From positions 1-57,079 of the IMG/VR virus record IMGVR_UViG_3300046007_011426: 57,079 nucleotides of DNA, one strand, 5' to 3'. The notes under the pieces are model-generated. The model worked only from the letters and a program-made list of their open reading frames with translations. It had not been told where the DNA came from and ran no database searches. This document shows positions 9,280-55,905 of this stretch, in pieces. Each line of letters starts with the position of its first letter. Positions within the stretch are counted from its first letter, which is position 1. The DNA comes from a virus. A program made the position numbers and the translations under genes.

Positions 9280-9858
9280 CTATTTATTTACTTTTATGGG
9301 ATAAAAAGTAGGAATCCTTAAAACATAATCCAATTCTGATGGCTCTATACGATATAATTTACTCTGCACTCTATCAAATCTATATTTCCTAAAAGGTGAC
9401 TGAACATAAGTAATTGCGTCCCTCCAGTGAAAATTAATCCCCTCAAAATAACTACCACTTGCATTTGTGACTAAAACAACTGGATTCATGTCATACCATT
9501 CACCAGTTTTTGCGATATATTTAAAAGTATAAATCTCATTCAATTGAAATGAATCAGCGGTTCTCCCCTCTGTTGCCAAAACACCAATCAACAACTTAAA
9601 ATAATAATTAGGATCATAACCACTAGGAATATTTTTAGATAATTCTTCTAACTTGTTTATCTTTTCTTTTTCTTTTCTAGCCGCCTTATAATCAACAAAT
9701 TCTTCTGGATCCCTTCCTTGTTTTTTGGCAAGATAAACAATTCTCTGCTCATCAGCATCTATCTTCCTTCTTTTTGCATCGGCCAAACGACCAAAAAGAC
9801 TTAAAATTTTACTAACGGCACCCCAGGCCCTGGCCGCAACATTCGATAAAATTCCCAT
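9280..9858 (-). CDS. Conserved virion-type protein of unknown function
   Basis: A 192-residue protein between gp4 and gp48. Residues 1-80 are helical and basic, with a KAARKEKEKINKLEELS coiled-coil-like stretch. Residues 100-192 are beta-rich, with the pattern IYTFKY, YDMNPVVLVTN, GINFHW and FRKYRFDRV. I have a sense of this last pattern from phage structural proteins but cannot name the family. It is co-directional with the baseplate genes and its late box and spacing fit co-expression, so a structural or assembly role is inferred. Confidence 0.6.
   Translation of the reverse strand: MGILSNVAARAWGAVSKILSLFGRLADAKRRKIDADEQRIVYLAKKQGRDPEEFVDYKAARKEKEKINKLEELSKNIPSGYDPNYYFKLLIGVLATEGRTADSFQLNEIYTFKYIAKTGEWYDMNPVVLVTNASGSYFEGINFHWRDAITYVQSPFRKYRFDRVQSKLYRIEPSELDYVLRIPTFYPIKVNK
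9281..9287 (-). promoter_or_regulatory. Leftward late box for gp48-gp53
   Basis: On the minus strand this reads ATAAATAGTC, placed about 15 bases before the gp48 ATG and inside the 3' end of the preceding gene. Confidence 0.6.
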
Positions 9859-9860
9859 AT

Positions 9861-10301
9861 CTAAATCCCCAATTCTTTTTCTGTGACTACCCTAAACATC
9901 ATATTGTTTGATTCACAAAACTGTTTTGCCTGATTCCATTTGGACTGATTCTTTTCATAAGTAGCAACCTCATTAAGATAAGTCTGGGTTTTCTTTCTGC
10001 CTTTTTTAGGAGGTCTGGTTTGTTTGTCTGGTTTTATTTCAATCAGATAAGAATCAACTCCCCCACTTCTGTTTTTTACCTTTAAAAACAAGTCAGGAAA
10101 ATATCTTCTTACCTTATTGGTCGAAGAATCAAAATACTTTATAGGAAATGGCTCAGAAGACCATTCTAAAATACTATCGGTCGTGTCCGCCCATTTAAAG
10201 GCCCTTAGTTCCCATGAGGATCTAAACACAATTTGGTTCACATCACCAATGTATTTTTGTGGATTTTGTGGTTTAAACAGTCCTTGTAAATAATTGGCCA
10301 A
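9861..10301 (-). CDS. 4: Head completion protein gp4
   Basis: A 146-residue homolog of T4 gp4 (also called gp50/gp65; about 150 residues), needed to finish filled heads before tail joining. The conserved core is IVFRSSWELRAFKWAD, then RRYFPDLFLKV and SYLIEIKPDKQTRPPKK, matching the T4 protein closely. The D...EIK arrangement is that of a TnsA/restriction-enzyme-like nuclease fold, so an endonuclease activity trimming DNA at the portal is plausible. The gene reads leftward from the palindromic late promoter at 10306-10335, with a leader of about 20 nt. Confidence 0.88.
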   Translation of the reverse strand: MANYLQGLFKPQNPQKYIGDVNQIVFRSSWELRAFKWADTTDSILEWSSEPFPIKYFDSSTNKVRRYFPDLFLKVKNRSGGVDSYLIEIKPDKQTRPPKKGRKKTQTYLNEVATYEKNQSKWNQAKQFCESNNMMFRVVTEKELGI

Positions 10302-11918: not shown

Positions 11919-14573
11919 ATGTCAGTCAGAAACAAATTAGACGCACTTAAAAGAATACTTGGGGCTGAGAACTTCTTTCTGGCCGAGGCATTTATTGACA
12001 AAAATTTAAAACCACTAAAGATCAGAAAAACATCTAATCTTTATGTTGCGGCTGTTGAATATATTGGCACATTAATACAAGAAGAAAAGCAGATATTAAC
12101 GGATAAAGAAGCCGAGATCTTAGCCAAAGATAATACAAAAAAGACTGTTGGTACTGTTCATAAAAAGCTAAAGAAAGAGTTTGATAATCTTGTAAAATTA
12201 AATCAAATACTGGAAGGAGAAAAGAAAGAACCAGCAAGATCCCCATCTAAACCTCTCCCTGATCCGATTCCGGCTGCCCCGGCAAAAAAAGAACCACCCG
12301 AAGTAACTCTTGAGGCCGATCAAAAAAGAGTTCAAAAAGGCGGCTCTGCAACAGTAACCTGGGCATCTAAAAATGCGGCCAGGATATCAAGAACGGATAT
12401 TCCAGGAGTAACATCAAGATCTCCTTTGAGTGGTTCTATAGAAATCAAGGACATAAGAAGGAGAAGAGATCTTTATATTGTTGTAGAGTCTTTAGATGGC
12501 CAAAAAGCCGAGGCCAGGACTCAAATTTTTGTTGAGACCCAGGATTATCAAAGGAAAAAAGAGAAAGGATTGGTTGATGAAGAACCTCCTACTCCACAAC
12601 CAAAACCACCCTTAACTAATCTGGTTAGCCCATCTTCTAGACCTCAACCAGAGCCAAGAAGACGGTTAACACCAGATGCCGAATCTTCTAATATAAACAC
12701 CAATATTCTTGTCAGTATTGAAAAATCTCTTACAAACATCTCTAGAGTTCTTGCCTCTCAATTGAAGTTGGGTCAAAGAATTTTTGATACCGAAAGAAGA
12801 TCAGCCGAGGCCGCAAATCGGCTCAAGAAAGAAGAACAAATGGAGGGTAAAGATGAGGGTCCTTCAGGCACTTCCTTAATGAAGGCCGGGGCCGAAAAGA
12901 TGATTTCTCCTTTTAAGGCTATTATTGATAAGATCGTTAACTTCTTGGTCTTTACATTTTTGGGTCGGGCCTTTACTGAGATCATAAAGTGGATGAATGA
13001 TCCGGCAAATAAAGGAAAGGTTGATGCCCTAGGAAAATTCTTAAAGGCCGCCTGGCCAATTCTTCTTGGACTTTCCTTATTATTCTTGACTCCTTTGGGT
13101 AGTTTTATTTTAGGAACTGTTCAGTTCTTGACTGGAACTGCCAAGACCTTAAAGGGCCTGAAAGGACTAATTGATAGACTTATCTTTAAGAAAGGAGCCA
13201 AACCACCTGTAAAGGGCGGCCCAGGTGTTGCAGGAGGCACTAAGGGGAAAGTGACGGTAAGCGGGCAGACACAGGCTAGAGGGTCATTTTCAAGGCGGTC
13301 TCCAATATCTGGAGATGTTCAACCAACAAAAGGGTTTAAATTACCTAAAATCCCAGCGTCTCCTCTAAAGACTATTGGGAAGGGTGGTCTTGCTACGGCT
13401 GCTGTAACTACAATACTAGAGATTTTTAAACCACAGATCCAAGGTGCTGTAGGTCAATTTTATGCAAACGTGGGATCGGGTATGAAAAATTTATCCGATG
13501 AACAACTAATAAAAGAAATTGAAATTGAATCTAAAACAAAAGAAGATCCTTTTGGTAGACTTAGATTATTACAAGAAGAAGCCGAAAGGAGACAGAAAAA
13601 ATTCTCTACTGGTGGTCAAATATTCTCGGGACTTGTAACAGAAAAAGACGGTATAAAAGTATCTGGCGCGGGGAAAGATACCCAGGCATTCCCTGTTATG
13701 GGAGGCGGGACAGCGGTTCTCCAACCTGGAGAAGTCGTTCTTAATAAGGCCGGTGTAAAAAATGCACTTTCCATAGGAATTGACCCATTAAAATTAAACA
13801 CCGGACCAAATGCAAATAAACCAGTTAATATAACGGGTGGAATAAAAGCCATGAAATCGGGTGGTATTATTGGTGGCATGAATAAAATGCCAAAAATCTC
13901 TAGTAATAAAAAGATGCCATCGATGAACATGAATATGGCAAATAATATTACTAATAGATCAACCAATGTAAATGTCAACAATAATATGACAATGAAGAAT
14001 TCTGGAACTTCTTCATATAGGCCAATAAAACAATCAGCTCCTATGATGAGTAATTATTCGTCAATGGGTACTAGGCCAATAAGACAATCAACTCCTATGA
14101 TGAGTAATTATTCTTCAATGAGAAGTAGTCCGACAAGACAATCAACTCCTATGGCAAGTAATTATTCCTCAACTACGCCTAGGTCAATGTCTTCTGGTAT
14201 TTCTATGACCAGGCCATTTACTCCTCAGACTAGAACATACCAGCCAACAAGTCCATATATTAGAAAACCAGAACAAACTTCGTATTTTAGTTCTTATGAT
14301 AAAATAGCCAGATCAACATCTACTGTTTATCAGACTTCAAATAACTTCCAGCCCATAAGATCTACTCCAACACTTACTGCACCGGCTCCCCTTTCGAGAA
14401 GAAACAGATCCGAACCAATTATCCTACCACCTATCACTCAAAACGCCAATATGGTTGGATCATCCGCCACGGGTTCTGGCACCCAAATTCCATCCTTTGG
14501 GGCCACTTGCCCATCATCAAGTGCGGCAACGGCCAGAAAAATCCTATGTGACACCTATGGGATAATTGCCTAA
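11919..14573 (+). CDS. Large hub/tape-measure-position structural protein with Ig-like domain
   Basis: An 884-residue protein. Residues 1-90 are helical and charged. At about 125-205 is an Ig-like domain with the GGSATVTWASKNA pattern. At about 325-420 are hydrophobic segments (FLVFTFLGRAF, then PILLGLSLLFLTPLGSFILG) that could be membrane-inserting. At 560-620 is a FSTGGQIFSG/AVLQPGEVVLN region typical of tape-measure tails. From about 690 on it is Asn/Ser/Met/Pro-rich, with repeats of the form RPIKQSAPMMSNYSSM. It occupies the place of gp29 between gp26/gp51 and gp27, so a hub or tail-length role is inferred. It shares the FTFLG segment with the next protein. Confidence 0.6.
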   Translation: MSVRNKLDALKRILGAENFFLAEAFIDKNLKPLKIRKTSNLYVAAVEYIGTLIQEEKQILTDKEAEILAKDNTKKTVGTVHKKLKKEFDNLVKLNQILEGEKKEPARSPSKPLPDPIPAAPAKKEPPEVTLEADQKRVQKGGSATVTWASKNAARISRTDIPGVTSRSPLSGSIEIKDIRRRRDLYIVVESLDGQKAEARTQIFVETQDYQRKKEKGLVDEEPPTPQPKPPLTNLVSPSSRPQPEPRRRLTPDAESSNINTNILVSIEKSLTNISRVLASQLKLGQRIFDTERRSAEAANRLKKEEQMEGKDEGPSGTSLMKAGAEKMISPFKAIIDKIVNFLVFTFLGRAFTEIIKWMNDPANKGKVDALGKFLKAAWPILLGLSLLFLTPLGSFILGTVQFLTGTAKTLKGLKGLIDRLIFKKGAKPPVKGGPGVAGGTKGKVTVSGQTQARGSFSRRSPISGDVQPTKGFKLPKIPASPLKTIGKGGLATAAVTTILEIFKPQIQGAVGQFYANVGSGMKNLSDEQLIKEIEIESKTKEDPFGRLRLLQEEAERRQKKFSTGGQIFSGLVTEKDGIKVSGAGKDTQAFPVMGGGTAVLQPGEVVLNKAGVKNALSIGIDPLKLNTGPNANKPVNITGGIKAMKSGGIIGGMNKMPKISSNKKMPSMNMNMANNITNRSTNVNVNNNMTMKNSGTSSYRPIKQSAPMMSNYSSMGTRPIRQSTPMMSNYSSMRSSPTRQSTPMASNYSSTTPRSMSSGISMTRPFTPQTRTYQPTSPYIRKPEQTSYFSSYDKIARSTSTVYQTSNNFQPIRSTPTLTAPAPLSRRNRSEPIILPPITQNANMVGSSATGSGTQIPSFGATCPSSSAATARKILCDTYGIIA

Positions 14574-17500
14574 TGGATCCGTCTAAATTCTTTAATCGAA
14601 AAATAAACATAAGAAACCCAGAAACTCCTTATAATAAAGGAAAGTTTGTTGACGAGTCGCAGAATTATTCCAATAGAGTTTCTTCTAGAATAAATCAATC
14701 ACCATTAACCAAGTCTTTATTCTCTTTAAGGAATAAGGTATTTCAGATTGAGAATTTATTAAACGGTATTTTTAGTCTAGATAAAAAGAAACAAGAACAA
14801 ACCAAAAAGATAAAGGCGGCCGAAGTACCTGATAGAAAACCAAAAACAAAAGGACCCCAGATTTTTGGCAACCTTATACAAAGACCTAAAACAGGAGCCC
14901 TTGATTTAATAAAAGATTTTGTCACGTTTACATTTTTGGGCTGGCTGTTTACAAGAATTCAACCATTGCTTGGTGGTCTGACAAAACTTGGACCATTATT
15001 AGAAGGAATGTCCTGGTTTATTGGTGGAACACTTAAAAATATGGTCGATGTTTTTGCGACCTTTTTAAAGTTGGGTTTTGATGCAAAAGAGAAATTTGAT
15101 AGTATAGCCGGGGATATAAAGAAAAATACAAAAGGGATAGACAAGGCATTTGATGAAACCTTAAATTCCTTAAAGGGGGTTTTTACTGGTGTAATACAAC
15201 TGACCAATTCCTTTTTGGCCGTTTCTGTAAAGGAAGATGAATTAAACGAGGCAAAGACCCAGTTAGCCAAAGAACAATCTGCCGATAATGTTCCTCCGCT
15301 TCCACCTTTACCAAAAGCCGATGTCCCACAAACGCCACCAACATCCGATCCATTTCCTAAGACCCCGCCAGTTCAAAAATTCAATACTGGTGGTGTTATT
15401 CGTGGTTATAATGAAGGTGGAAGAATTGATCCGAGAACACCCATAACTCGCGGAGTAGAATCTCAAAGAAGAGAAGTACCCAAACCAAAGCCAATTATTC
15501 AACCACAAAAAACTACCCCAGGTAAGGACGTTGGTGGCGATAAGAAGGTTAAGCAGTTATATGATCAAACTCGCGCAGGTATTCCTGATTTTATTCCACT
15601 TCCTTCTTTCTTCAGGTCTGATAAAAAGAGTGGTTTTGCTGCCCTAATGGGTGCATCTGAAGAGTATAAAAAGCCAATGACCAATGATATTCTTGGTATT
15701 GGAAATATGATGGGTGCCTCTGTTGATTCTGCCTTGGGCCAGAAAATAGAAAAGAAATCTTATACCCAGTTTGCGGACGGTATTAAGTATTTGGTTAATT
15801 ATGGCCGAACCCAACCAGAAGAGTTTGCAAAAATTGATCTTGAAGACATGGTGAGGAAGATTGTTGAGCCAAGAGTAAATATGGCAATCAATCGTATTCA
15901 AGAAGAGATTAATAAAAAGTCAGCAGTTGAGGTTACACCTGGTCCCGGTGGAGGGATGGAAGGAGGAGGAGCTATTGGTACTATAGATATTGGTGGTTTT
16001 AGCCCCGAAGATGTTGATGCTCTAGGCAGGATGATCCAGGCCGAATCTGGAAGTGAAAGCGCATTAGGAAAAGCCGGTGTTTTGGCCGTAATTTTGAACA
16101 GGTATAGATTAATAAAATCTGGAACTCCTCCAAGTCAATTCAATATTTCAGGTAAAACAAGTGAACAAGTTACAATAAGAGATATTTTATTTGCGGGTGG
16201 AACTGGTCCTGGAAATCAATTTTCACCTTATAAAGATGGTAGTTTTGAGCGGACTAGCTCTGCTGCTGGTAAAAGTGCCCTTGCCGCTGCCATTCAAAGT
16301 GGGGGTAATGACCCACAAAAATTTAAAGATAATTTAATATCTTCAGGACTAAGTGAAGCAGATGCAGATTATGTTATTAGATCTGTATCATTTTCTAATG
16401 CTAGAACTAGGTCATCTAGGCCATTTAATACTAGAGAAGTTGCTGTTGGCAATCATGTTTTTCAACATTCACCAAACATAAGATTAACTGGACAAATTGG
16501 AGCAATTGATGCTAGTGTGACTAGTAATTACTCTGCGGTTTTGGTTGATGGTGGTGTATTACCTAGTACTAGAATTATAACAAGTTATAGGGGCTGGAGA
16601 TGGGGCCGAATGCATCGTGGAGTTGATTATGCTGGACCTGGGGTGGATGACCACCCCATTAGTGTTATTAAGCCTGGAAAAGTTGTCGCGGCTGGATGGG
16701 ATGACGGTGGTGGTGGGTTTATAGTAGTAATTGATCACACTGATGGGGCTACGACAAAATATTTTCACTTAAAAGAGGGAAGTATGAAAGTAAAAGTTGG
16801 TGAAAATATAGTTCCAGGCCAGGTTATCGGTATTGTGGGTAATACTGGAAGAAGCACAGGTACTCATCTACACTTTGAGATTTGGAAGGGTGGAAAAGAT
16901 TTGGATAATCCTCACAAATTAGCCGATGGTTATTTTAGATTTGGGGGAAACGTTAAGCCAACAGAAGTACAAAAATTAGCAAAAAAAGGTGGTAAAGAAG
17001 GATATATAAACCCTCAAGGAACATTTGTAGAAAGAAGATGGGCACCTGAGGAAAAACGTCGGTTTGAAAATGAAAATATTAAAAAAACCCAGCAACCCAT
17101 AACTCAAGCACCTAGACCACCAGAACTACAAAGAATTACTCAAACACCTAAAGGAACCGGGCATCTTGTTAATAATAAAATGTATTATTTTGATATAAAT
17201 ACTGGAGTTCTTAAGGATGATAAAAACAAGATAATACAAGAAAGTTCTAATGAGTGGAAAAATGTGATGCCAGAAATCCTTAGGAGAACCACATCAAAAG
17301 ACAGAGAAAAATTAAGAAAGAAATTAGAAGCAAAAAAGGAAAATGAGAACAATCCTCTTTTTCAAATAATAAAAGGCTGGCAAAATATATTTGGAATAAG
17401 TTCGACCAGTCCAACTTTACCAGCCGAAAAATACACTTCTTATAATCAACCAAGAGGATCTCAAGAACCAGTATTGGCCATTCAACCCGTCATAATATCC

Positions 17501-17584
17501 AATCAAATTCCAGTCCCTGTTTCATCTGGCGCTGTTGCATTTCTCCCTCCTAGAATAAGTAGTTCTAAATCAAATCTAGTATAA
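14573..17584 (+). CDS. Tail lysin: hub-type structural protein with SleB-like and M23 domains
   Basis: A 1003-residue protein. The N-terminal region has a hydrophobic block (DFVTFTFLGWLF) similar to the preceding protein, then a Pro-rich linker and an FNTGGVIRGY segment. About residues 475-625 match SleB/Hydrolase_2 cell-wall hydrolases (GRMIQAESGSESALGKAGV, then AVILNRYR). About 665-785 is an M23 (LytM) peptidase with zinc ligands visible as H681 and D685 (HRGVD) and H765-L-H767 (THLHFE). It therefore carries two predicted peptidoglycan-cleaving activities and probably opens the cell wall during injection. It overlaps the previous gene by one base (TAATG) and gp27 likewise. Confidence 0.82.
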   Translation: MDPSKFFNRKINIRNPETPYNKGKFVDESQNYSNRVSSRINQSPLTKSLFSLRNKVFQIENLLNGIFSLDKKKQEQTKKIKAAEVPDRKPKTKGPQIFGNLIQRPKTGALDLIKDFVTFTFLGWLFTRIQPLLGGLTKLGPLLEGMSWFIGGTLKNMVDVFATFLKLGFDAKEKFDSIAGDIKKNTKGIDKAFDETLNSLKGVFTGVIQLTNSFLAVSVKEDELNEAKTQLAKEQSADNVPPLPPLPKADVPQTPPTSDPFPKTPPVQKFNTGGVIRGYNEGGRIDPRTPITRGVESQRREVPKPKPIIQPQKTTPGKDVGGDKKVKQLYDQTRAGIPDFIPLPSFFRSDKKSGFAALMGASEEYKKPMTNDILGIGNMMGASVDSALGQKIEKKSYTQFADGIKYLVNYGRTQPEEFAKIDLEDMVRKIVEPRVNMAINRIQEEINKKSAVEVTPGPGGGMEGGGAIGTIDIGGFSPEDVDALGRMIQAESGSESALGKAGVLAVILNRYRLIKSGTPPSQFNISGKTSEQVTIRDILFAGGTGPGNQFSPYKDGSFERTSSAAGKSALAAAIQSGGNDPQKFKDNLISSGLSEADADYVIRSVSFSNARTRSSRPFNTREVAVGNHVFQHSPNIRLTGQIGAIDASVTSNYSAVLVDGGVLPSTRIITSYRGWRWGRMHRGVDYAGPGVDDHPISVIKPGKVVAAGWDDGGGGFIVVIDHTDGATTKYFHLKEGSMKVKVGENIVPGQVIGIVGNTGRSTGTHLHFEIWKGGKDLDNPHKLADGYFRFGGNVKPTEVQKLAKKGGKEGYINPQGTFVERRWAPEEKRRFENENIKKTQQPITQAPRPPELQRITQTPKGTGHLVNNKMYYFDINTGVLKDDKNKIIQESSNEWKNVMPEILRRTTSKDREKLRKKLEAKKENENNPLFQIIKGWQNIFGISSTSPTLPAEKYTSYNQPRGSQEPVLAIQPVIISNQIPVPVSSGAVAFLPPRISSSKSNLV

Positions 17585-42103: not shown

Positions 42104-43312
42104 CTACTGTGAAGCTAAAGACTTCGCAGTTTCAGCATTCATAGACTCTTCTATTGAAGACGCCTCCTGCTGTTTTTGTTTAGAGTCCGATTGCGTTCCA
42201 CAACCAGACAGAATATTCAATCCTTGAATTAAAATGTTTTTTGCCGCATTAGTGTCTCTGTCGTGAACTGTTCCACAAGAAGGACAAGTCCATTCCCGAA
42301 CATTTAGAGGCATAGAATCCATTAAATGACTACAAAAACTACAAGTTTTACTGGAAGGATAGAACCTATCTATCACAACAAGTTCTCTTGAGTTCCATTT
42401 GCACTTATAAGTAAGCATAGAGACCAATGTTCCCCAAGAAACATCATTAATTGCTTGTGCCAATTTATGATTTTTAACCATTCCTTTTACATTCAGGTTC
42501 TCAATACAAATAACTTGGTTTTCGTTAATGAGTTGAGAAGTAATTTGATGTAAGTAGTCTAGTCTTTGGTTAGTTACTTTTTCATACTGAATTGCTAGTT
42601 TGTTTCTCCATTTTTCTCTTGTTTTGGTTTCCTTTTTCTTTTTAGAATGTTGTCTCTGAATGTATTTGATTCTCTTCAGTCTTCGCTTTAGAAATCTCTT
42701 GTTTGGGAAGACCTCACCATTAGAAGTAATTACTAAATCCTTAATTCCTAAATCTATTCCAATACAATCTTCAACTTGTGGTTTTGGTTGAATATCAAAT
42801 TCTCCCTGAACCGAGGCATAATATTTCCCAGAAGGAGTTTTAGAAATTGTTACAGAATTAATTTTAATCAACTCTCCTTTATAATTTCCTTTGAATTTAA
42901 ATGGTTTTTTAAATTTAGGAATAGTAACCAGATTGTTTTCCCAATCAACATCAAAATGTTGAGGCACTCTAAAGGAATACCTAGATTTTCTTTTAGACTT
43001 AAATTTAGGAAACTTTGCTAACTTTCTAAAAAATCTATCATAAGCACCATCTAAATCTTTAATAGATGCCTGAAGGGTTTGAGAATTAACTTCTTTTAAC
43101 CATTCGGTTTCAGTTTCTTGTTTTAAATTTACAAGAAGTTTAGATGCGTCAATATAAGAAAGTTTATTTTTTCCTTGATGATAATTTTCATTAAATATGT
43201 TCAAAAAGTGATTATAAACCCACCGTCTACAACCAAAATGCTTTTCAAGCAGAACAACATCTTGTTGGTTATTTGGATAGATTCTAAGTTTAACTGCTTT
43301 TTGGACCAACAT
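42104..43312 (-). CDS. tnpB: TnpB RNA-guided nuclease (IS605/IS1341 type)
   Basis: A 402-residue TnpB with all active-site parts visible. The RuvC residues are D187 (GIDLGIKD), E271 (CIENLNVKG) and D353 (DRDTNAAKN). The zinc ribbon Cys are at 324/327 (CSFC) and 343/346 (CPSC). The N-terminal recognition part begins MLVQKAVKLRIYPN and contains CRRWVYNHFL. The length equals well-studied TnpBs (about 400). No tnpA transposase is in the window, so this is a stand-alone, IS1341-like element. It is on the strand opposite to the fibre genes. The polar C-terminal tail (GCGTQSDSKQKQQEASS) probably also encodes part of the guide RNA scaffold. Confidence 0.92.
   Translation of the reverse strand: MLVQKAVKLRIYPNNQQDVVLLEKHFGCRRWVYNHFLNIFNENYHQGKNKLSYIDASKLLVNLKQETETEWLKEVNSQTLQASIKDLDGAYDRFFRKLAKFPKFKSKRKSRYSFRVPQHFDVDWENNLVTIPKFKKPFKFKGNYKGELIKINSVTISKTPSGKYYASVQGEFDIQPKPQVEDCIGIDLGIKDLVITSNGEVFPNKRFLKRRLKRIKYIQRQHSKKKKETKTREKWRNKLAIQYEKVTNQRLDYLHQITSQLINENQVICIENLNVKGMVKNHKLAQAINDVSWGTLVSMLTYKCKWNSRELVVIDRFYPSSKTCSFCSHLMDSMPLNVREWTCPSCGTVHDRDTNAAKNILIQGLNILSGCGTQSDSKQKQQEASSIEESMNAETAKSLASQ
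42106..42130. repeat. Right-end hairpin of the TnpB element
   Basis: ACTGTGAAG (42106-42114) and CTTCGCAGT (42122-42130) pair with one T-G wobble and a seven-base loop. They overlap the last tnpB codons. In related elements this region is the 3' scaffold of the guide RNA, with the guide taken from flanking DNA below 42104. Confidence 0.55.
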
Positions 43313-45330: not shown

Positions 45331-46563
45331 ATGACATCTATTATTCTGAGACCTCATCAAGAAGATGCCTTGATTTCCATGAATAATAATTCCATTGGAA
45401 AAATACTACTTGGAACTGGTGCTGGTAAATCAATTATTTTTATTCAGAATACAATCAAACAATTTGAGTTTGATCAACCACAAACCGTTTGTATTGTTGC
45501 ACCAAGGATTCTTCTTGCATGTCAGCTGTCTCAAGAGTATGAGAAGTTTATTAGCAATGCAAAGTTTATTCACGTACACTCAGGTAGTCGTCTAAAACAC
45601 TATAGGACTACGAATCCAGAAGATATTCAAGAGTGGCATAATATCCATAAGGATCACCATAAATTGATTTTTACTTCTTATAATTCCCTAAAAAAAGTAA
45701 TTGAATCTGGAATCAAGGTTGACACTTATCATTTTGATGAAGGACATAATTCAGTGAAGAAAAACTTTTTTCCTCATATTGAGGATGCTGTAAGGTCTGC
45801 CAATAAAAAATACTTCTTTACGGCTACTCCTAAAAATTCCCTTATTCCTGATAAAAAACCAGGAATGAATATATCAGAAGTTTATGGTGACACTCTTTGT
45901 AGTGTTCCTATGACCCAAATGGTAGACCAGGGATTTGTTATTCCTCCACTTGTTGTAAAAAAGGAAGTGGAAAATAATGAGAATATTGATGAACGTAATT
46001 GTGATCTGATCTTGAAGGCCCTTGATGAGGAGAATGTTTCTAAGGTTCTTATTGCAGCAAAATCTACTAAATCAATTATTTCTCTCATTAGTGAAACCGA
46101 TTTTTCAGAACGTCTTAAAGAGAGAGATTATAGTCTAATGCACATTACCTCACAACATGGGTGTTATATTAATGGAAAGGAAGTCAAGAGAATGGATTTC
46201 TTTAAGACCCTAAACGAATGGGGTAATGACGTGGATAAGAAATTTGTGGTACTTAATTACAGTATTCTTGGGGAAGGAATCAATGTGGTCGGACTTGATT
46301 CTGTTATTTTCCTAAGGAATATGTCTATTATTGATATGGTCCAGACTGTAGGGAGAATTATTCGTTTAGATAAAAAAGACTCTGACCGAATTGCATCAGG
46401 AGAACTGGTTGTTGGTGATTATAGGAACTATGTAAAACCTTATGGTCTTGTTGTATTGCCCATTTTTGATTCTTATTCAAAGAAGGTTTCAGAAGCAGTG
46501 GAAGAAATGATTTATAAGAGTTTTACCCTGGGTGAAACTGTTACTCAGGAGATTATAAAGTAG
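45331..46563 (+). CDS. Superfamily 2 DNA/RNA helicase
   Basis: A 410-residue helicase. Motif I is GTGAGKS (28-34), motif Ia is APRILLACQ, motif II is DEGH (136-139), motif III is TATP (about 165) and motif VI is QTVGRIIR, in the C-terminal RecA-like domain. It resembles the UvsW/DEAD-H helicases of T4-like phages but is shorter than T4 UvsW and has the unusual DEGH box. Possible roles are branch migration, R-loop removal or a defence-related function. It is preceded by several promoters, and its end is followed by an AACTGTCC-type promoter, so it is probably a separate transcript. Confidence 0.85.
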   Translation: MTSIILRPHQEDALISMNNNSIGKILLGTGAGKSIIFIQNTIKQFEFDQPQTVCIVAPRILLACQLSQEYEKFISNAKFIHVHSGSRLKHYRTTNPEDIQEWHNIHKDHHKLIFTSYNSLKKVIESGIKVDTYHFDEGHNSVKKNFFPHIEDAVRSANKKYFFTATPKNSLIPDKKPGMNISEVYGDTLCSVPMTQMVDQGFVIPPLVVKKEVENNENIDERNCDLILKALDEENVSKVLIAAKSTKSIISLISETDFSERLKERDYSLMHITSQHGCYINGKEVKRMDFFKTLNEWGNDVDKKFVVLNYSILGEGINVVGLDSVIFLRNMSIIDMVQTVGRIIRLDKKDSDRIASGELVVGDYRNYVKPYGLVVLPIFDSYSKKVSEAVEEMIYKSFTLGETVTQEIIK

Positions 46564-46639: not shown

Positions 46640-47971
46640 ATGATGTTCAAGATCTCAGAAAAAGCCAATCCAAATTATCTTGCGGCAATCGTTCGGCTGG
46701 ATAATATTGTTCCTCATCCTAATGCGGACAGGCTTCAAATTGCCGTTGTTCAGGGAAATTCTGTTATTGTGTCCTTGGATGCAAAGGAAGGAGACGTTTA
46801 TGTTTACTTTCCTTTAGAGTGCGCCATTAATAAGGAATTCCTTTCATGGAGTAATTCTTTTTCCGATAAAACAATGAACTCTGATACAGAAATAGCTGGG
46901 TTTTTCGGAAAACAGGGAAGAGTCAAAGCGGTAAAACTTCGGGGAGCACCATCTATGGGGTATGCCGTTCCCCGCAACAAACTAGAAATGTGGCTATCAG
47001 AAAAAGAAAAGAAGGCAGTTATTATTTCTGATGATCTTATTGGAAAGGAGTTTGATTCTTATAATGATATTATTATTTGTGAAAAATATGTGAATCCTGT
47101 TGCCCTTAAGAAGCAGAATAAAGAGAAAAAGAACCAAAAGAAAGTTGTTCGGGAACCAAAAGTTGTTGATTCTCAATTTCATTTTCACATAAACACGCCA
47201 CAACTTAGGAAACTTATTCACAATATTTCGCCAAACGATTATATTGCAATTACCCGAAAACTTCATGGAACGTCATGGGTTGCGGCCAGACTTCTCTGTA
47301 ATAAAAGGCTGACCTGGCAAGAAAAAGTACTTAAGAAGTTTGGTGTAAAAATTGTTGACACTGAATATGATTTGCTCTGGGCATCAAGAAGGGTCCTGAA
47401 AAACGGCTATCTTGAAGTAGGAAATAAAGATCACTTTTATTCTTATGATCTATGGGAAGATATTGCCAAATCAGTAGAATACGCAATTCAAGATTCTATT
47501 ACTCTTTATGGCGAATCCGTGGGGTACACAAAAACTGGTAGTTTTATTCAAAATGGATATGATTATGGATGTCCTGTTGGGCAATTTAAAACCTATATTT
47601 ACCGAATCACCACAACGAATCAGTCTGGTCAAGTTTATGAATTTTCTCATAATCAGGTAAAGGAATATTGTGAAAAATTTGGTCTTACAATGGTTCCTGA
47701 ACTTTATTATGGAAAGGCCAAGGATCTTTATCCGGAGCTTTCTGTAAAAGAACATTGGCACGAAAATTTCCTCCAGCGTCTTATTGAAGATTATCTTGAG
47801 AAAGATTGTGATCTATGTAAATCTCAAAAGGTTCCTGATGAGGGAATTTGTCTTCGTAAGGATATTTTCGATATCGAAGTTTATAAACTCAAATCATTCA
47901 AATTCCTTGAATGGGAAACAAAACAACTAGATGACGAAAATTATTTAGATATGGAATCCCAAGATGCCTAA
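46640..47971 (+). CDS. RNA ligase of the DraRnl/Rnl5 type
   Basis: A 443-residue ATP-dependent RNA ligase. An N-terminal OB-like module (LAAIVRLDNIVPHPNADRLQ, then VYVYFPLECAINKEFL) precedes the nucleotidyltransferase domain, the order seen in Deinococcus DraRnl rather than in T4 Rnl1 or Rnl2. Motif I is KLHGTS with Lys207 as the predicted AMP acceptor. Motif III is near YDLLWASR, motif IV is TLYGESVG (Glu292) and motif V contains EGICLRKD and VYKLKSF. A Lys-rich linker (residues 155-172) joins the domains. It overlaps the kinase gene by eight bases, which links sealing with end preparation. It is predicted to repair broken RNAs, such as tRNAs cut by host defence. Confidence 0.88.
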   Translation: MMFKISEKANPNYLAAIVRLDNIVPHPNADRLQIAVVQGNSVIVSLDAKEGDVYVYFPLECAINKEFLSWSNSFSDKTMNSDTEIAGFFGKQGRVKAVKLRGAPSMGYAVPRNKLEMWLSEKEKKAVIISDDLIGKEFDSYNDIIICEKYVNPVALKKQNKEKKNQKKVVREPKVVDSQFHFHINTPQLRKLIHNISPNDYIAITRKLHGTSWVAARLLCNKRLTWQEKVLKKFGVKIVDTEYDLLWASRRVLKNGYLEVGNKDHFYSYDLWEDIAKSVEYAIQDSITLYGESVGYTKTGSFIQNGYDYGCPVGQFKTYIYRITTTNQSGQVYEFSHNQVKEYCEKFGLTMVPELYYGKAKDLYPELSVKEHWHENFLQRLIEDYLEKDCDLCKSQKVPDEGICLRKDIFDIEVYKLKSFKFLEWETKQLDDENYLDMESQDA

Positions 47972-48443
47972 AGCAATCCTTCTCTGCGGTGTACCAACAT
48001 CAGGAAAATCTTCCTGGGTTAAAAATCATCCAGGTTACATTGTCATTTCTTCTGATAACATAATCGAGAACTATGCGAAAAACATCGGATCAACTTATGA
48101 TGGTGTCTTTGATCACTATATACAAGAGGCAATTTCTTTGATGCTTCAACAACTTAAACACGCAGTCAAGAACAATAAAAACATTATTGTCGATCAGACT
48201 CACCTGACACCCAAAGTCAGAAAAAGAAAACTCAGAATGATCTCGGATCATTATGAGAAAATTGCTGTTTATTTTGAAATCTCTAAGGAAGAAATGCTAA
48301 AGAGAAACCACAACTCGGACAGAACAAAAACTGTCCCGGTTCATGTGCTAGAGTCGATGCATGGCTCTTATAGTAGGCCATGCGTTTCGGAGGGTTTCTC
48401 CCAAGTGGCCGATGGACGGTCCTTCAACTGTCCACTAAATTGA
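47964..48443 (+). CDS. Polynucleotide 5'-kinase
   Basis: A 159-residue P-loop kinase resembling the kinase domain of T4 Pnkp. The P-loop is GVPTSGKSS, an SSD segment holds the likely catalytic Asp31, then IIVDQTHLTPKVRKRK and the lid RNHNSDRTKTVPVHVLESM. T4 Pnkp (301 residues) also has a C-terminal 3'-phosphatase, which is missing here. The Arg that follows the catalytic Asp in T4 (R38) is not obvious. It overlaps the RNA ligase gene, so the pair is co-translated. The phosphatase step may be supplied by the metallophosphoesterase at 48934. Confidence 0.88.
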   Translation: MPKAILLCGVPTSGKSSWVKNHPGYIVISSDNIIENYAKNIGSTYDGVFDHYIQEAISLMLQQLKHAVKNNKNIIVDQTHLTPKVRKRKLRMISDHYEKIAVYFEISKEEMLKRNHNSDRTKTVPVHVLESMHGSYSRPCVSEGFSQVADGRSFNCPLN

Positions 48444-48469
48444 CCACTTACCCTTAAACGTGCTACAGT
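48426..48469 (+). promoter_or_regulatory. AACTGTCC-type promoter, copy 4
   Basis: AACTGTCC at 48426-48433, inside the end of the kinase gene, and TACAGT at 48464-48469 (38 bases). A TTGACC hexamer sits between them, 18 bases before TACAGT, so this copy also has a plausible -35. Confidence 0.65.
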
Positions 48470-48501
48470 TCACTTGTCCAAATTACTAAAGGATGCTTTT
48501 T

Positions 48502-48855
48502 ATGACTTATCAAATTTTCAATCGCACTGACTATGATTTCACGGCTCGCACTACATCCTCAAAGGTGCTGGCTTATGATGTGAATGTTGATCGATGGGTG
48601 CAAACCACAATGCAAGCAGTTAGGGATTACGCTGGCTACACTCGATTCTTCTTTGTTGATGATCTTGAGGCCGATGTTCCTGAAGAGGAAGTCGAGCCCA
48701 CCGCCGCCGACCGCGCCCGTGAGGGAGTTAATGAGATGATCAGTTGGATTTCGCAATGGTCAGTCCGCGCACCAGCCGTTGACGCAAAACTCAACGAGTT
48801 CCGCGACCAGATTTTTGAGGCCATTGACGAACTAGAAGAAGAAGTGGACGGGTGA
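48502..48855 (+). CDS. Acidic hypothetical protein with GC-rich codon use
   Basis: A protein of 117 residues from ATG 48502, chosen over the in-frame ATG 48493 because AAAGGA (48488-48493) is then eight bases upstream. It begins MTYQIFNRTDYDFTARTTSS. The second half is strongly acidic and helical (DVPEEEVEPTAADRAREGVN, IDELEEEVDG). Its codons (gcc gcc gac cgc gcc cgt) are richer in GC than those of its neighbours, suggesting a recent arrival. It interrupts the RNA-repair set. No family is recognised. The acidic surface could mimic nucleic acid, but that is speculation. Confidence 0.6.
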   Translation: MTYQIFNRTDYDFTARTTSSKVLAYDVNVDRWVQTTMQAVRDYAGYTRFFFVDDLEADVPEEEVEPTAADRAREGVNEMISWISQWSVRAPAVDAKLNEFRDQIFEAIDELEEEVDG

Positions 48856-48864
48856 CAATCTTCT

Positions 48865-48909
48865 AACTGTCACACCTTAACCCAATAAAACCATAACCTC
48901 GGCTAGACT
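48865..48909 (+). promoter_or_regulatory. AACTGTCC-type promoter, copy 5
   Basis: AACTGTCA at 48865-48872 and TAGACT at 48904-48909 (39 bases), directly before the metallophosphatase gene at 48934. Confidence 0.55.
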
Positions 48910-48933
48910 TAAAACACTAACCGGGGTTTTCTA

Positions 48934-49608
48934 ATGTCTTTCTGTTTCATTTCAGATATCCACTCTCAGTCTCAAAGACTGCAAAGGGCAATCGATTATG
49001 CCGAGTCTCAAAATCTTCAAATCATCTTTCTTGGAGACATTTTTGACAGCAAGATCGAATACAGCGACTCCATCGGGGTTCTGAATCTAGTGGAAAAGTC
49101 TGTAAAAAAAGGTCACGTTTGTATGCACTCTAATCACCAGGACAAGCTGGTTCGTTATCTAAAAGGAAACAATGTTTCTCAAAATAACGGTCTTGATGTC
49201 ACAATCAAGGAATTTGAGGAGAACAACATCGATAAAAATGCCCTGTTTGATCTTCTTTCGTCCTTTCCTTATGGGGTGATTATGAAGGACAATAAGGGCA
49301 AAGAATACCGGATTGCCCATGCATACTTCCCGAATAGCCTAAGGACCGAATCAAAGTTTGTTTATAGGAGTGACCTTAATCGTAGGTACAGGGACGTATT
49401 CATTTACGGAAAAACCGACCGGGATAATATCCGGGTCAAGTGGTGGGAGGCCCAAAATGAAAACCAGGATTATGTAAGGGTAGCCGGTCATTATCATGCG
49501 GTTTTTATTGGAGACCAATCCATCGTTCTTGATTCTGGATGCGGTAGTGATTCTCTGGCTCCGCTGTCACTTTATAATGTAGAATCTGGTGTAATCAAGG
49601 AGTTTTGA
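48934..49608 (+). CDS. Metallophosphatase of the bacterial Pnkp/PPP type
   Basis: A 224-residue binuclear metallophosphoesterase. Ligands are D8 and H10 (ISDIH), D35 (LGDIFD), N67-H68 (HSNHQD), H129 (RIAHAYF) and H186/H188 (AGHYHA). The stretch SNHQDKLVRYLKGNNV followed by GLDVT, and the end LDSGCGSDSLAPLSLYN, match what I know of the phosphatase module of bacterial Pnkp. That module removes 3'- and 2',3'-cyclic phosphates from RNA ends. The Gly of the usual GNH(D/E) is replaced by Ser. With the neighbouring ligase and kinase it would complete an RNA end-healing and sealing set. A general protein phosphatase remains possible. Confidence 0.78.
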   Translation: MSFCFISDIHSQSQRLQRAIDYAESQNLQIIFLGDIFDSKIEYSDSIGVLNLVEKSVKKGHVCMHSNHQDKLVRYLKGNNVSQNNGLDVTIKEFEENNIDKNALFDLLSSFPYGVIMKDNKGKEYRIAHAYFPNSLRTESKFVYRSDLNRRYRDVFIYGKTDRDNIRVKWWEAQNENQDYVRVAGHYHAVFIGDQSIVLDSGCGSDSLAPLSLYNVESGVIKEF

Positions 49609-49613
49609 TTTTT

Positions 49614-50090
49614 ATGAGCTATAGGGACCTAGAACCTTACCGAGACGTGTTACTTTTAAACGCTGATTACAACCCGATTTCCATCATAAAATGGCGAAGA
49701 GCCATTGTTCTTTTATTGAAGGAACGAGTCAAGTTCATTTCTAAACGAGTTATTTGCCTAAAAAATTATGTAAGGATTCCTTCTGAAAAACTCTTAAGTG
49801 TGAGGCCAACCAAAAATCTTGTTAAGAAATTTGGTAATTATCAATGCGCTTATTGTGGAATTTATGATGGCCTAACAATTGATCACGTAATTCCATTGTC
49901 TCGCGGAGGGCTTCACACTTTTGATAATCTGGTTCCAGCATGTCGAAGTTGCAATGAAGAAAAGGGTAATCGGACTCCAGAAGAATGGGGAAAGTTTCCC
50001 TACAGAACTAACTACAAACCTAAAAGTAAATTGGAGATTATTTTGAAAAAATCTAACGTTGATGAATGGAAGGATTACGTGTACTCATGA
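49614..50090 (+). CDS. HNH endonuclease
   Basis: A 158-residue HNH nuclease from ATG 49614 (AAGGAG at 49597-49602 gives better spacing than the in-frame TTG at 49605). The nuclease core lies at about residues 80-125: YQCAYCG, LTIDHVIPLSRGG, FDNLVPACRSCNEEKGNRTP, with both zinc CxxC pairs present. The N-terminal part (VLLLNADYNPISIIKWRRAI) is a conserved extension of a common bacterial/phage HNH subfamily. It may be a free-standing homing endonuclease or a host-DNA degrading enzyme. It overlaps the next tiny membrane gene by ATGA. Confidence 0.88.
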   Translation: MSYRDLEPYRDVLLLNADYNPISIIKWRRAIVLLLKERVKFISKRVICLKNYVRIPSEKLLSVRPTKNLVKKFGNYQCAYCGIYDGLTIDHVIPLSRGGLHTFDNLVPACRSCNEEKGNRTPEEWGKFPYRTNYKPKSKLEIILKKSNVDEWKDYVYS

Positions 50091-52630: not shown

Positions 52631-52780
52631 ATGAAACGATACTCTGCGCATTCTCATACGGAATTTGAAGAATCTGATACCCTAGAAGAGGCTATTGAAA
52701 TTGCCAAATCAATGTCGGCTCATTTTGGAAATTCTTACGTGATCGATAACGAAACCAACCAAGTTGTGGAGGAATTTTGA
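52631..52780 (+). CDS. Small hypothetical protein (49 residues)
   Basis: MKRYSAHSHTEFEESDTLEE, then AIEIAKSMSAHFGNSYVIDN and ETNQVVEEF. The helix followed by SYVIDNETNQVVEEF resembles small beta-alpha proteins that are repeated in cyanophage early regions. It ends in TGATG overlap with the PcfJ-like gene. Confidence 0.55.
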   Translation: MKRYSAHSHTEFEESDTLEEAIEIAKSMSAHFGNSYVIDNETNQVVEEF

Positions 52781-54342
52781 TGTTGAATTTTACTATCCCC
52801 AAGCCTCTTTATGTGAAAGTAGAAGATTATAATGTAAAGAAACCAGTGGCCCTTAAAATAGCTGCAAATACCAAACCAGTTTTCCCAAAGGCCGGAATCC
52901 CAGAAAATCTGGTCCCAGAAAATATCCTTCCTAAGCAACGGCTTACAAATATTATTACAGAACTGAATAGGGATACTGATTCTTATTATAATAATAATGC
53001 TACTTTTGCAACCAACTGGCAAGAGAACACCATTATTGTAACAAAAATTGGTAATCGTTTTTGGTATGCTATTTGGTTTGATATTAGTGAAGAAGTTGTA
53101 TTCAATTATTCTCTTTGTATAAGAAATCTTAAGTCCCTTAAAAGCTATAAAGACTGGATTTATTTTAAGATGTTTGGTGTACTAGAAGACGACTTTACTT
53201 CTCAGACCCATAGTAAAAAAGAATATCTTTATCTTTCCCGGAGTGTAACTCCACTTGATCTAGAGAACCATTCTTATCAAATGGTGGATTCTTTTGCTAG
53301 GAATTATAATCAACCAGAATCGGTTACTAATGCTAGATCTACTTTTGTAGAAAAACTTCAGAGATTTATTAAGGTAGATAACAAGTATTCCAATATTTTT
53401 TATTATTATAATAGGTCTTTGGCCATTGTTCTGGGTAATTGGGATCAACAATATAATTTCCATTGGGTTCCTGATATCGATTATTATTTGTCTGAAAGAC
53501 AGTTTCATCCTAAACTCAAAGAAGCCGTTAATACGCCCTTCTTTAAAAAGTCAATCAACCAGGACATTTCCTTTATTGTTGAGACATTTAGAGAAGCCGA
53601 TACCAGGGAAAAAGAGGCTCTTTTTCTTAAAAGAAGCGCCTCTATTAAAAACAGACTGAATGCTATTAACTACTTGCTTCATCTTTATGAAGATGAGATG
53701 ACTCTTGATTATCTCCAACAGGTCTGGTCGGGGCTTGGTCCTGATCACAATGTTTCTTATTATAGTTATCACTTTAGCCAAGAAACGCTTATTTGGTTCA
53801 GGGATAATGTCCCGGTCAAGTCCTTTGTGAACATGTTTATTAATTCGGAAGACCAGATTAAGGACACTGTTAGTATGGTCTACGATATCTTGCGCCAGAA
53901 GCCCGATATTGATCTGAAATACACCGGACGTTGGAGGCCCACCGAATTTCATGATTTCATTATGTCGGAACAATGGAAGTGCAAACATAAAAATGTGCCT
54001 CTTCCCCAGGACCTATTTCCAAAACCAGTAAAGGTTGATGAAATGACGTTCCTCCAGCCCCTAGATTTACATTTTCTTACAAAATGGGGACGGGCCGCTA
54101 GGAATTGCGTAGGTAGTTCTACCTATTCGGATGGTATCTTGAAGAAGAATCATTTTATTATCCTGGCCCTTAAGGAAAATGTCCCATACTTGACTATTCA
54201 GGCCAAGGTAGAGGCCGAAAATTTTAAGGTGGTTCAAATTAAGAAACAATGTAATTCTTCTCTTAATTCACTAGAACAAGAAGATTTCTCAAAAGCGTTC
54301 AAAAAAGCCCTGGAAATTAGAACGAATGAACTGGCCGCTTAA
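52780..54342 (+). CDS. PcfJ-like protein
   Basis: A 520-residue protein. The C-terminal 100 residues match the PcfJ domain pattern: a Trp/Arg-rich lead (FLTKWGRAARNCVGSSTY), a hydrophobic strand (HFIILALKENVPYLTIQAKV) and a KQCNSSLN end, equivalent to the NCVGSxxY...QxxGxxN signature. The first 400 residues are helical and rich in aromatic residues, with no known domain. PcfJ proteins occur on plasmids and phages with unknown biochemical function. ATG 52780 shares TGATG with the preceding gene. The next gene overlaps its end by 17 bases. Confidence 0.7.
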   Translation: MLNFTIPKPLYVKVEDYNVKKPVALKIAANTKPVFPKAGIPENLVPENILPKQRLTNIITELNRDTDSYYNNNATFATNWQENTIIVTKIGNRFWYAIWFDISEEVVFNYSLCIRNLKSLKSYKDWIYFKMFGVLEDDFTSQTHSKKEYLYLSRSVTPLDLENHSYQMVDSFARNYNQPESVTNARSTFVEKLQRFIKVDNKYSNIFYYYNRSLAIVLGNWDQQYNFHWVPDIDYYLSERQFHPKLKEAVNTPFFKKSINQDISFIVETFREADTREKEALFLKRSASIKNRLNAINYLLHLYEDEMTLDYLQQVWSGLGPDHNVSYYSYHFSQETLIWFRDNVPVKSFVNMFINSEDQIKDTVSMVYDILRQKPDIDLKYTGRWRPTEFHDFIMSEQWKCKHKNVPLPQDLFPKPVKVDEMTFLQPLDLHFLTKWGRAARNCVGSSTYSDGILKKNHFIILALKENVPYLTIQAKVEAENFKVVQIKKQCNSSLNSLEQEDFSKAFKKALEIRTNELAA

Positions 54343-54851: not shown

Positions 54852-55105
54852 AACCAGAACTAGTCCAAAGACTTTTTGAAATGCAGAAAAAAATTGACAA
54901 AATTATTTGTCCTCTTTATGAAGATATAGACCAAGGAATGTTTGTACCACAAGACGAAGAACCGTATTGGCGGGATACCACATGTTTTAATGATCCTGAA
55001 AAAGTCTATTCTTTTTCATTTTCTAGTGATGGAGATTATGAGGGCGATCTGCCGCCTGATTGTGCTCTTGAAATTTTGACCATTTTTGAGTCTTATAGAC
55101 GATGA
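54848..55105 (+). CDS. Hypothetical acidic protein (85 residues)
   Basis: MKPELVQRLFEMQKKIDKII, then CPLYEDIDQGMFVPQDEEPY and DGDYEGDLPPDCALEILTIF. Helix, acidic loop and a final helix. Coupled by ATGA to both neighbours, including the phosphoesterase that follows. Unknown function. Confidence 0.58.
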   Translation: MKPELVQRLFEMQKKIDKIICPLYEDIDQGMFVPQDEEPYWRDTTCFNDPEKVYSFSFSSDGDYEGDLPPDCALEILTIFESYRR

Positions 55106-55905
55106 GAATTCGCGTAAGTTCCGACGTTCATCTTGAATTTAATGAATCTGGTCATGGGATCCCTGATTTAGGGTCCGCTGACGCATTAATATTAGGTGGT
55201 GACATCTTATGTGCCCGCCATTTCAAGACAGATGGCCCACTTAAAAAAGTTTATAAGGATTTTCTTCAAAAGTGTTCTGATAATTTTGAGCATGTTATTT
55301 ATATAAAAGGAAACCATGAGCCGTGGGGTCATACTTATCAGGGCACTCATGATCTAATAAAAGAAAACCTCCCGGATAATATCCATCTACTTGAAAACGA
55401 GTACATAAAAATCAAAAGTTGGACCTTCCTTTGTTGCACGCTCTGGACGGACTTCTTTAATGAGAACCCATTAGAAATGATGGAGGCCCAGAGGTATATG
55501 CGAGATTATACAAGCATAAGAATCGGAAGTAATTATAGAAAACTAAGACCAGAAGATACTCTTGGGTTTCATAAACAATCTAAACAATTTCTTATTGAGA
55601 AGTTAGAAGAGTTTAAAAACGAAAAAATCTGGGTCTGTACTCATCATGCTCCGTCTTATCAGTCAATCCATCCAAAATACAGGGCCGAGACCATGAACGG
55701 GGCATTTGCGAGTAATTTAGATGATTTGATTTTGAATAATCCACAGATTAAATACTTTTCACATGGTCATACGCACGATAGTTTTGATTACATGATTAAA
55801 GGTTGTCGGGTTATTTGTAATCCGAGGGGTTATTATACAGGTGTAAATTCTAACGATCTAAATCCAGATTTCGATCCAAACTTTGAGATCGAGGTGGACG
55901 ATTGA
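55102..55905 (+). CDS. Calcineurin-like metallophosphoesterase
   Basis: A 267-residue phosphoesterase with all metal motifs: D8-x-H10 (SSDVHLEF), D34 (LGGDIL), N71-H72-E73 (KGNHEPWGH), the THHAPS motif and GHTHDS. Related enzymes are frequent in marine myophages and hydrolyse phosphodiesters or nucleotides; the substrate here is unknown. It differs clearly from the Pnkp-type enzyme at 48934, which lacks GNHE and HHAPS. It overlaps the previous gene by ATGA and is followed by an AACTGTCA element. Confidence 0.85.
   Translation: MRIRVSSDVHLEFNESGHGIPDLGSADALILGGDILCARHFKTDGPLKKVYKDFLQKCSDNFEHVIYIKGNHEPWGHTYQGTHDLIKENLPDNIHLLENEYIKIKSWTFLCCTLWTDFFNENPLEMMEAQRYMRDYTSIRIGSNYRKLRPEDTLGFHKQSKQFLIEKLEEFKNEKIWVCTHHAPSYQSIHPKYRAETMNGAFASNLDDLILNNPQIKYFSHGHTHDSFDYMIKGCRVICNPRGYYTGVNSNDLNPDFDPNFEIEVDD

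Follow-up and report, generated by a model that had tools for sequence, protein, structure and literature searches.

A candidate RNA end-healing and sealing gene set with a swapped phosphatase in a phage genome fragment

Can the phosphatase of a phage RNA repair system be exchanged for an unrelated enzyme? This question is raised by three genes on the + strand of IMG/VR virus record IMGVR_UViG_3300046007_011426, a 57-kb fragment of a cyanophage-like virus that is referred to here, at its full length, as the window. RNA repair is one way in which phages undo host suicide defenses that cut tRNA. The genes, whose open reading frames (ORFs) are present where the initial annotation of this DNA had placed them, encode an RNA ligase of 443 amino acids (46640..47971), a kinase-only, polynucleotide-kinase-like protein of 159 amino acids (47964..48443), and a calcineurin-type metallophosphatase of 224 amino acids (48934..49608). 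Based on sequence comparisons and predicted structures, we put the probability at roughly 0.75 that they constitute a phage set for healing and sealing RNA ends in which the phosphatase has been swapped. After cleavage by a ribonuclease, the metallophosphatase of such a set would remove the remaining 3' or 2',3'-cyclic phosphate, the kinase would phosphorylate the 5'-OH end, and the ligase would adenylate the 5' phosphate and join the ends. The metallophosphatase would thus take the role of the HAD phosphatase in T4-type Pnkp. All three enzymes would be expected to act in concert on RNA, presumably RNA broken by host ribonucleases, among which those that cut tRNA seem the most plausible.

Gene neighborhoods argue strongly for functional linkage of ligase, kinase, and phosphatase. 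An RNA ligase is encoded in 15 of the 16 IMG/VR records that bear the phosphatase and an AAA_33 kinase in 14, and the sole record without a ligase is a 20-kb fragment. The ligases found near the phosphatase belong to the phrog_968 family (the window, L086, and L059), to DRB0094 proper (L022, 202 bits, above the cut-off of 151), or to the Rnl1 type (L024, L040, L021, and L034). Of 10 clade representatives, 8 have the ligase and phosphatase genes 0.3-4.2 kb apart (combined p ~3e-7 if placement is uniform, a simplification that takes no account of the clustering of phage genes). Rnl1 is present in 11 of the 16 phosphatase records, compared with 2 of 16 records that were selected through an unrelated metallophosphatase (p 0.003). 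Both figures are inflated by shared ancestry. The proposal in the initial annotation that the locus is a Pnkp-plus-ligase system split over three proteins is supported by the separate ORFs, the Pnkp-like metallophosphatase, and the linkage of all three genes.

Replacement of the usual HAD enzyme is suggested by the distribution of the two phosphatase types. Every long kinase in the set examined (24/24) carries an HAD_PNKP-type domain, as called with a profile built on those 24 kinases and two standalone copies, and 8 of the 24 were checked directly against Pfam. HAD_PNKP stands alone at two further loci, and the family metallophosphatase occurs at none of these 26 HAD_PNKP loci. One case involves L024 and L190, whose ligases are 53% identical and whose kinases are 41% identical, but L024 carries the metallophosphatase whereas L190 has HAD_PNKP overlapping the kinase. 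This pair can be regarded as a natural experiment in which a homologous ligase and kinase are accompanied by two unrelated phosphatases. Such a swap, together with the mutual exclusion, is the pattern expected if both phosphatases do the same job. Furthermore, a single chain with AAA_33, Metallophos, and RNA_lig_T4_1 domains is found in Fusobacterium phage Fnu1 (gp169) and in Lactobacillus phage 3-521 (gp53), and the profile of the window phosphatase family matches the middle domain of these fusions. In PHROGs, this kinase-metallophosphatase-Rnl1 fusion corresponds to phrog_8238.

The phosphatase itself is most similar in structure to bacterial Pnkp. It matches PF00149 (6.7e-8), and its structure model (predicted local distance difference test, pLDDT, 94.9) finds its best PDB match in the Clostridium thermocellum Pnkp phosphatase 4j6o (3.0e-12, template modeling score 0.78), followed by lambda phosphatase and then ApaH. 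The family profile also places 4j6o first in the PDB (3.1e-15; next match 1e-6). Thus, the enzyme does not cluster with protein phosphatases, a possibility that the initial annotation had singled out for checking. Conserved residues are D8, H10, D35, D38, N67, H68, H129, H186, H188, and D200, and all of these except D38 and H188 make up the Pnkp-type metal-site residues (D-x-H, GD, NH, H, GH, D), every one of which is kept. The surrounding motifs are altered in the family, with GDxxDRG becoming GDxFDS[RK] (the window has GDIFDSK and most relatives DSR) and GHT becoming GHYH. A second His of the GHxH form is typical of Mre11-type metallophosphoesterases. The altered motifs may give different chemistry, such as the opening of 2',3'-cyclic ends or the clearing of 2'-phosphates.

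Similarity to Pnkp does not amount to membership. The segments NHQDKLVRYLKG (residues 67-78) and LDSGCG (199-204), which had been taken as a match to the Pnkp phosphatase module, are both present, but NHQDKL and LDSGCG were rejected as diagnostic motifs because PrpE has both. Matches in NCBIfam include bacter_Pnkp (1e-13) and PrpE (1.8e-9), with scores of 50.4 bits against TIGR04075 for bacterial Pnkp (cut-off 750) and 37.5 bits against NF010148 for the PrpE asymmetrical Ap4A hydrolase (cut-off 340). An unrooted tree of 47 sequences failed to place the enzyme inside either group; the phage family forms its own clade (98/92 support) apart from Pnkp and PrpE. The label "Pnkp-type" is therefore right for the nearest solved structure and wrong as a statement of membership, since 4j6o is the best match but the family has its own clade and PrpE is equally close. 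We tentatively propose, with the odds leaning somewhat against us, a separate family of phage RNA-end phosphatases (DS[RK], SNHQ, GHYH; metal site unlike Pnkp) that would be portable across at least three kinds of RNA ligase and exchanged for HAD phosphatases. A scan of bacterial genomes for this family yielded a single close relative. It lies on a 9.6-kb contig (L043) from an uncultured Microbacteriaceae bin, and we suspect that this contig is phage DNA. In L021, L043, and L025-L028, a PPP-type phosphatase gene closely precedes those of the kinase and the family phosphatase; L021 carries a third metallophosphoesterase (PF00149), and L043 has a similar ORF. The window also encodes a second metallophosphoesterase (55102-55905; phrog_1649, GHTH motif), which belongs to a different family that is conserved among related records.

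The 159-amino-acid kinase was claimed to be a stand-alone enzyme, and this is what is found: the ORF matches AAA_33 (5.9e-21), has no phosphatase domain and no HAD match (PF25109), and is nearest to T4 polynucleotide kinase (PNK). The latter heads the PDB matches of the single sequence, and it also ranks first (5.9e-27) for a profile of 17 kinase-only homologs, ahead of Pnkp1 (7e-26), L-seryl-tRNA(Sec) kinase (PSTK, 3e-24), and then the Clostridium Pnkp kinase. Its P-loop, GVPTSGKS (GxxxSGKS), is kept, as are D31 and D77, the equivalents of T4 Asp35 and Asp85. Against TIGR04075, the kinase scores 26.9 bits (threshold 750 bits).

The ligase comprises an N-terminal OB fold (PF21189, residues 14-111) followed by a nucleotidyltransferase domain (PF09414 RNA_ligase, residues 201-408), and its true start is probably at 46643, as in its relatives. 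It matches the phrog_968 "RNA ligase" family, whose members come mostly from phages, over its full length (residues 8-431, profile positions 4-397 of 398, 1.9e-60). The covalent nucleotidyltransferase motif I lysine and motifs III, IV, and V are present, with K207 within KLHG as the nucleotidyl lysine. In an alignment of 26 sequences, K207, H209, G210, E292, E401, G402, and K416 are invariant and K418 nearly so. The top 13 Foldseek matches of the structure model (pLDDT 88) in the PDB are all Naegleria gruberi RNA ligase (NgrRnl; E to 1.8e-15), and the family profile also matches T4 Rnl2 and NgrRnl by sequence. The designation "DraRnl-type" is right as regards the N-terminal OB order, and the fold is nearest to NgrRnl, but the window ligase is only a distant relative, scoring 37.4 bits against TIGR02306 (RNA_lig_DRB0094). 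Near the ligase and kinase of L022, two ORFs (L022:5438-5938 and 9524-10144) appear by eye to be Macro-domain-like and nucleotide adenylyltransferase-like, with no Pfam match at 0.001.

The three genes reside in a conserved neighborhood. Upstream lies a superfamily 2 (SF2) helicase gene (45331..46563, + strand; PF04851/PF00270, phrog_16 1.3e-53), which is outside the claimed repair set and occupies the same position in L001, L004, L019, L036, and Synechococcus phage B23. The ligase stop and the kinase start share 8 nt. Between kinase and phosphatase there is a conserved ORF on the + strand to which no function is assigned (48493..48855); it gave no family match in Pfam, PHROGs, or NCBIfam-type scans, and has homologs in the same four records and in B23. 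An HNH endonuclease gene (49605..50090, + strand; PF01844 2.2e-14) overlaps the phosphatase stop by 4 nt. The order helicase-ligase-kinase-ORF-phosphatase-HNH is kept in all four records. B23, a 243,633-bp myovirus from a subarctic lake, is the closest named relative in the repair-set genes by protein search. A large window ORF (14573-17584) is likewise nearest to B23 by protein search, and a nucleotide search with it against named phages gave no match. B23 retains the window gene order without the kinase, whose slot holds an 84-amino-acid ORF. A kinase homolog lies 38 kb away, split over two frames (L011:4989-5700; phage B23, 71.2 kb), and it is broken or mis-sequenced, given that the frame changes after about residue 113.

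Exchange of the phosphatase region is suggested by close relatives. From helicase through ligase to kinase, L001 and L036 share 99.65% identity; they diverge abruptly in their phosphatase-HNH blocks (64 and 73% protein identity; L001:5726-9061 versus L036:5727-7157), and are again 97.9% identical beyond. Because divergence is confined to this block, the block has apparently been exchanged, and HNH and phosphatase appear to be swapped as one unit, perhaps driven by the HNH endonuclease. Despite the exchange, a phosphatase of the same family stays in place. Elsewhere in the window, an IS605 OrfB/TnpB-type protein (PF07282, PF01385) is encoded on the - strand at 42104-43312 within the structural gene region, and a PcfJ-like protein of 521 amino acids (PF14284) at 52777-54342 evolves fast, with 47-68% identity between close relatives whose phosphatases are 94-96% identical. 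No end repeats and no tRNA genes were found when these were looked for in the 57-kb window.

Several observations weigh against the interpretation of these genes as an RNA repair set. The Arg of DRG, which is essential in Clostridium Pnkp, is missing from the phosphatase family. In the window kinase, I34 occupies the position of T4 Arg38, which is essential in the T4 enzyme; other kinase-only relatives, among them those of L022 and L040, do have the Arg. The contrast between kinase-only and kinase-plus-HAD loci gives p 0.003 by record, but the short-kinase association is weak once near relatives are collapsed (p 0.12). At ten kinase-only loci, the flanks contain neither type of phosphatase, so the picture of HAD replacement is incomplete. 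Phages S-CBWM1, S-TIM5, and PA5oct have phosphatase homologs with no ligase detected and no kinase above the family cut-off, which means that some family members may have another role; the S-CBWM1 protein is inside the family clade, and the other two form long, distant branches. Finally, 18 of 19 family members match both the Pnkp and the PrpE models, so that an Ap4A hydrolase is as close as Pnkp. The phosphatase might accordingly be a nucleotide hydrolase for Ap4A, an alarmone, or another small molecule, as PrpE and ApaH are, or a protein phosphatase, and merely neighbor a ligase-kinase pair. The best-matching family member hits PrpE more strongly than Pnkp, relatives without a detected ligase adjoin genes for nicotinamide mononucleotide adenylyltransferase, nrdB, or thymidylate synthase, and the S-TIM5 and S-CBWM1 proteins are annotated as PhoS or protein phosphatase. 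We nonetheless find this explanation quite improbable in light of the recurrent linkage to three kinds of ligase, the mutual exclusion with HAD_PNKP, the L024/L190 swap, and the kinase-metallophosphatase-ligase fusions; moreover, protein phosphatases are further off in fold than the Pnkp phosphatase.

Doubt about the kinase takes a similar form, in that the protein, rather than being a polynucleotide kinase, could be a P-loop kinase of a related type, for example one that is tRNA-linked and acts on small substrates. PSTK is its best NCBIfam match, ahead of Pnkp, and its branch has D-x-x-I-E where others have D-x-x-R. This idea seems very doubtful when set against the top rank of T4 PNK in the PDB by both single sequence and profile, and against the fact that in RpAliso and L190 members of the same kinase branch neighbor Rnl1 ligases and standalone HAD_PNKP. 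A further question is the RNA that would be repaired. If the genes do form a repair set for RNA (or RNA-DNA), its target could be something other than toxin-cut tRNA, such as duplex RNA with nicks, nicks in which one end is DNA, or phage transcripts. NgrRnl, the nearest ligase fold, is titled a nick-sealing RNA ligase in the PDB, and for this reason the single-stranded anticodon breaks used as substrate by T4 Rnl1 may not be the main target of the window ligase. The lack of tRNA genes in the window and the helicase upstream fit the same idea. Against this, phosphatases and kinases of the same types are also found with Rnl1, the kind of ligase that T4 uses in tRNA repair; B23 has 14 tRNAs (PMC7171214); and a relative of the ligase in L012 has a PolyA_pol/CCA-adding-like ORF about 1 kb downstream (L012:7356-8120), ahead of a kinase-HAD Pnkp, hinting at tRNA as the target. 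A target other than toxin-cut tRNA strikes us as rather unlikely. Deployment of the healing and sealing set against tRNA-cutting host defenses, by reversal of anticodon-nuclease cleavage, we rate at just short of an even bet. The initial annotation had named cyanobacterial toxins as the likely source of such cuts.

If the exchange of phosphatases is real, the usual HAD enzyme can be replaced by a metallophosphatase family whose members carry no annotation beyond hypothetical, protein phosphatase, PhoS, or PrpE. It would also yield a sequence signature for locating such sets in the genomes of large phages, along with a straightforward biochemical test. In our partial coverage of the literature, no description was found of this phosphatase family as a group that replaces the usual HAD one. 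According to Iyer and colleagues (PMC7824862), phage RNA ligases are accompanied by kinases and phosphoesterases, usually of the HAD type, with calcineurin-like enzymes apparently present in a few jumbo phages. The principle of a calcineurin-like phosphatase in phage RNA repair is therefore already known from that proposal, although the section of the article on this point names no gene family or motifs and describes no swap with HAD enzymes. The predicted RNA ligase and polynucleotide kinase of mycobacteriophage LeBron are each toxic on overexpression (PMC13148394).

The window set can be compared with several known systems. In T4, tRNA cut by PrrC is mended by Pnkp and Rnl1 (PMC3400036). The same three activities are expected here, the window kinase is nearest to T4 PNK, and relatives of the window phosphatase adjoin Rnl1-type ligases. 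However, T4 has an HAD (DxDxT) phosphatase domain fused to the kinase, whereas the window encodes its kinase separately from its phosphatase, which is of the metallophosphatase type, and has a ligase other than Rnl1. Bacterial Pnkp and T4-like Pnkp1 have phosphatase domains from different superfamilies (PMC4411300). Like the window set, bacterial Pnkp (TIGR04075, Clostridium thermocellum) combines a kinase with a calcineurin-type phosphatase, and it supplies the best solved match, but its kinase, metallophosphatase, and ligase modules lie in one polypeptide; the window has separate ORFs, a ligase of another family, and a phosphatase in its own clade with DS[RK] and GHYH. The phrog_8238 fusions of Fnu1 and 3-521 have the same three domain types as the window set, but in one polypeptide of 738-781 amino acids with an Rnl1-type ligase and with DRG in the phosphatase domain. 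DraRnl and NgrRnl (TIGR02306 and relatives) share with the window ligase the order of N-terminal OB and nucleotidyltransferase domains, whereas the window enzyme belongs to phrog_968 and reaches 37 bits versus an equivalog cut-off of 151. To these systems, the present analysis adds a defined phosphatase family with a sequence signature, its apparent exchange with HAD enzymes, and its use with three kinds of ligase.

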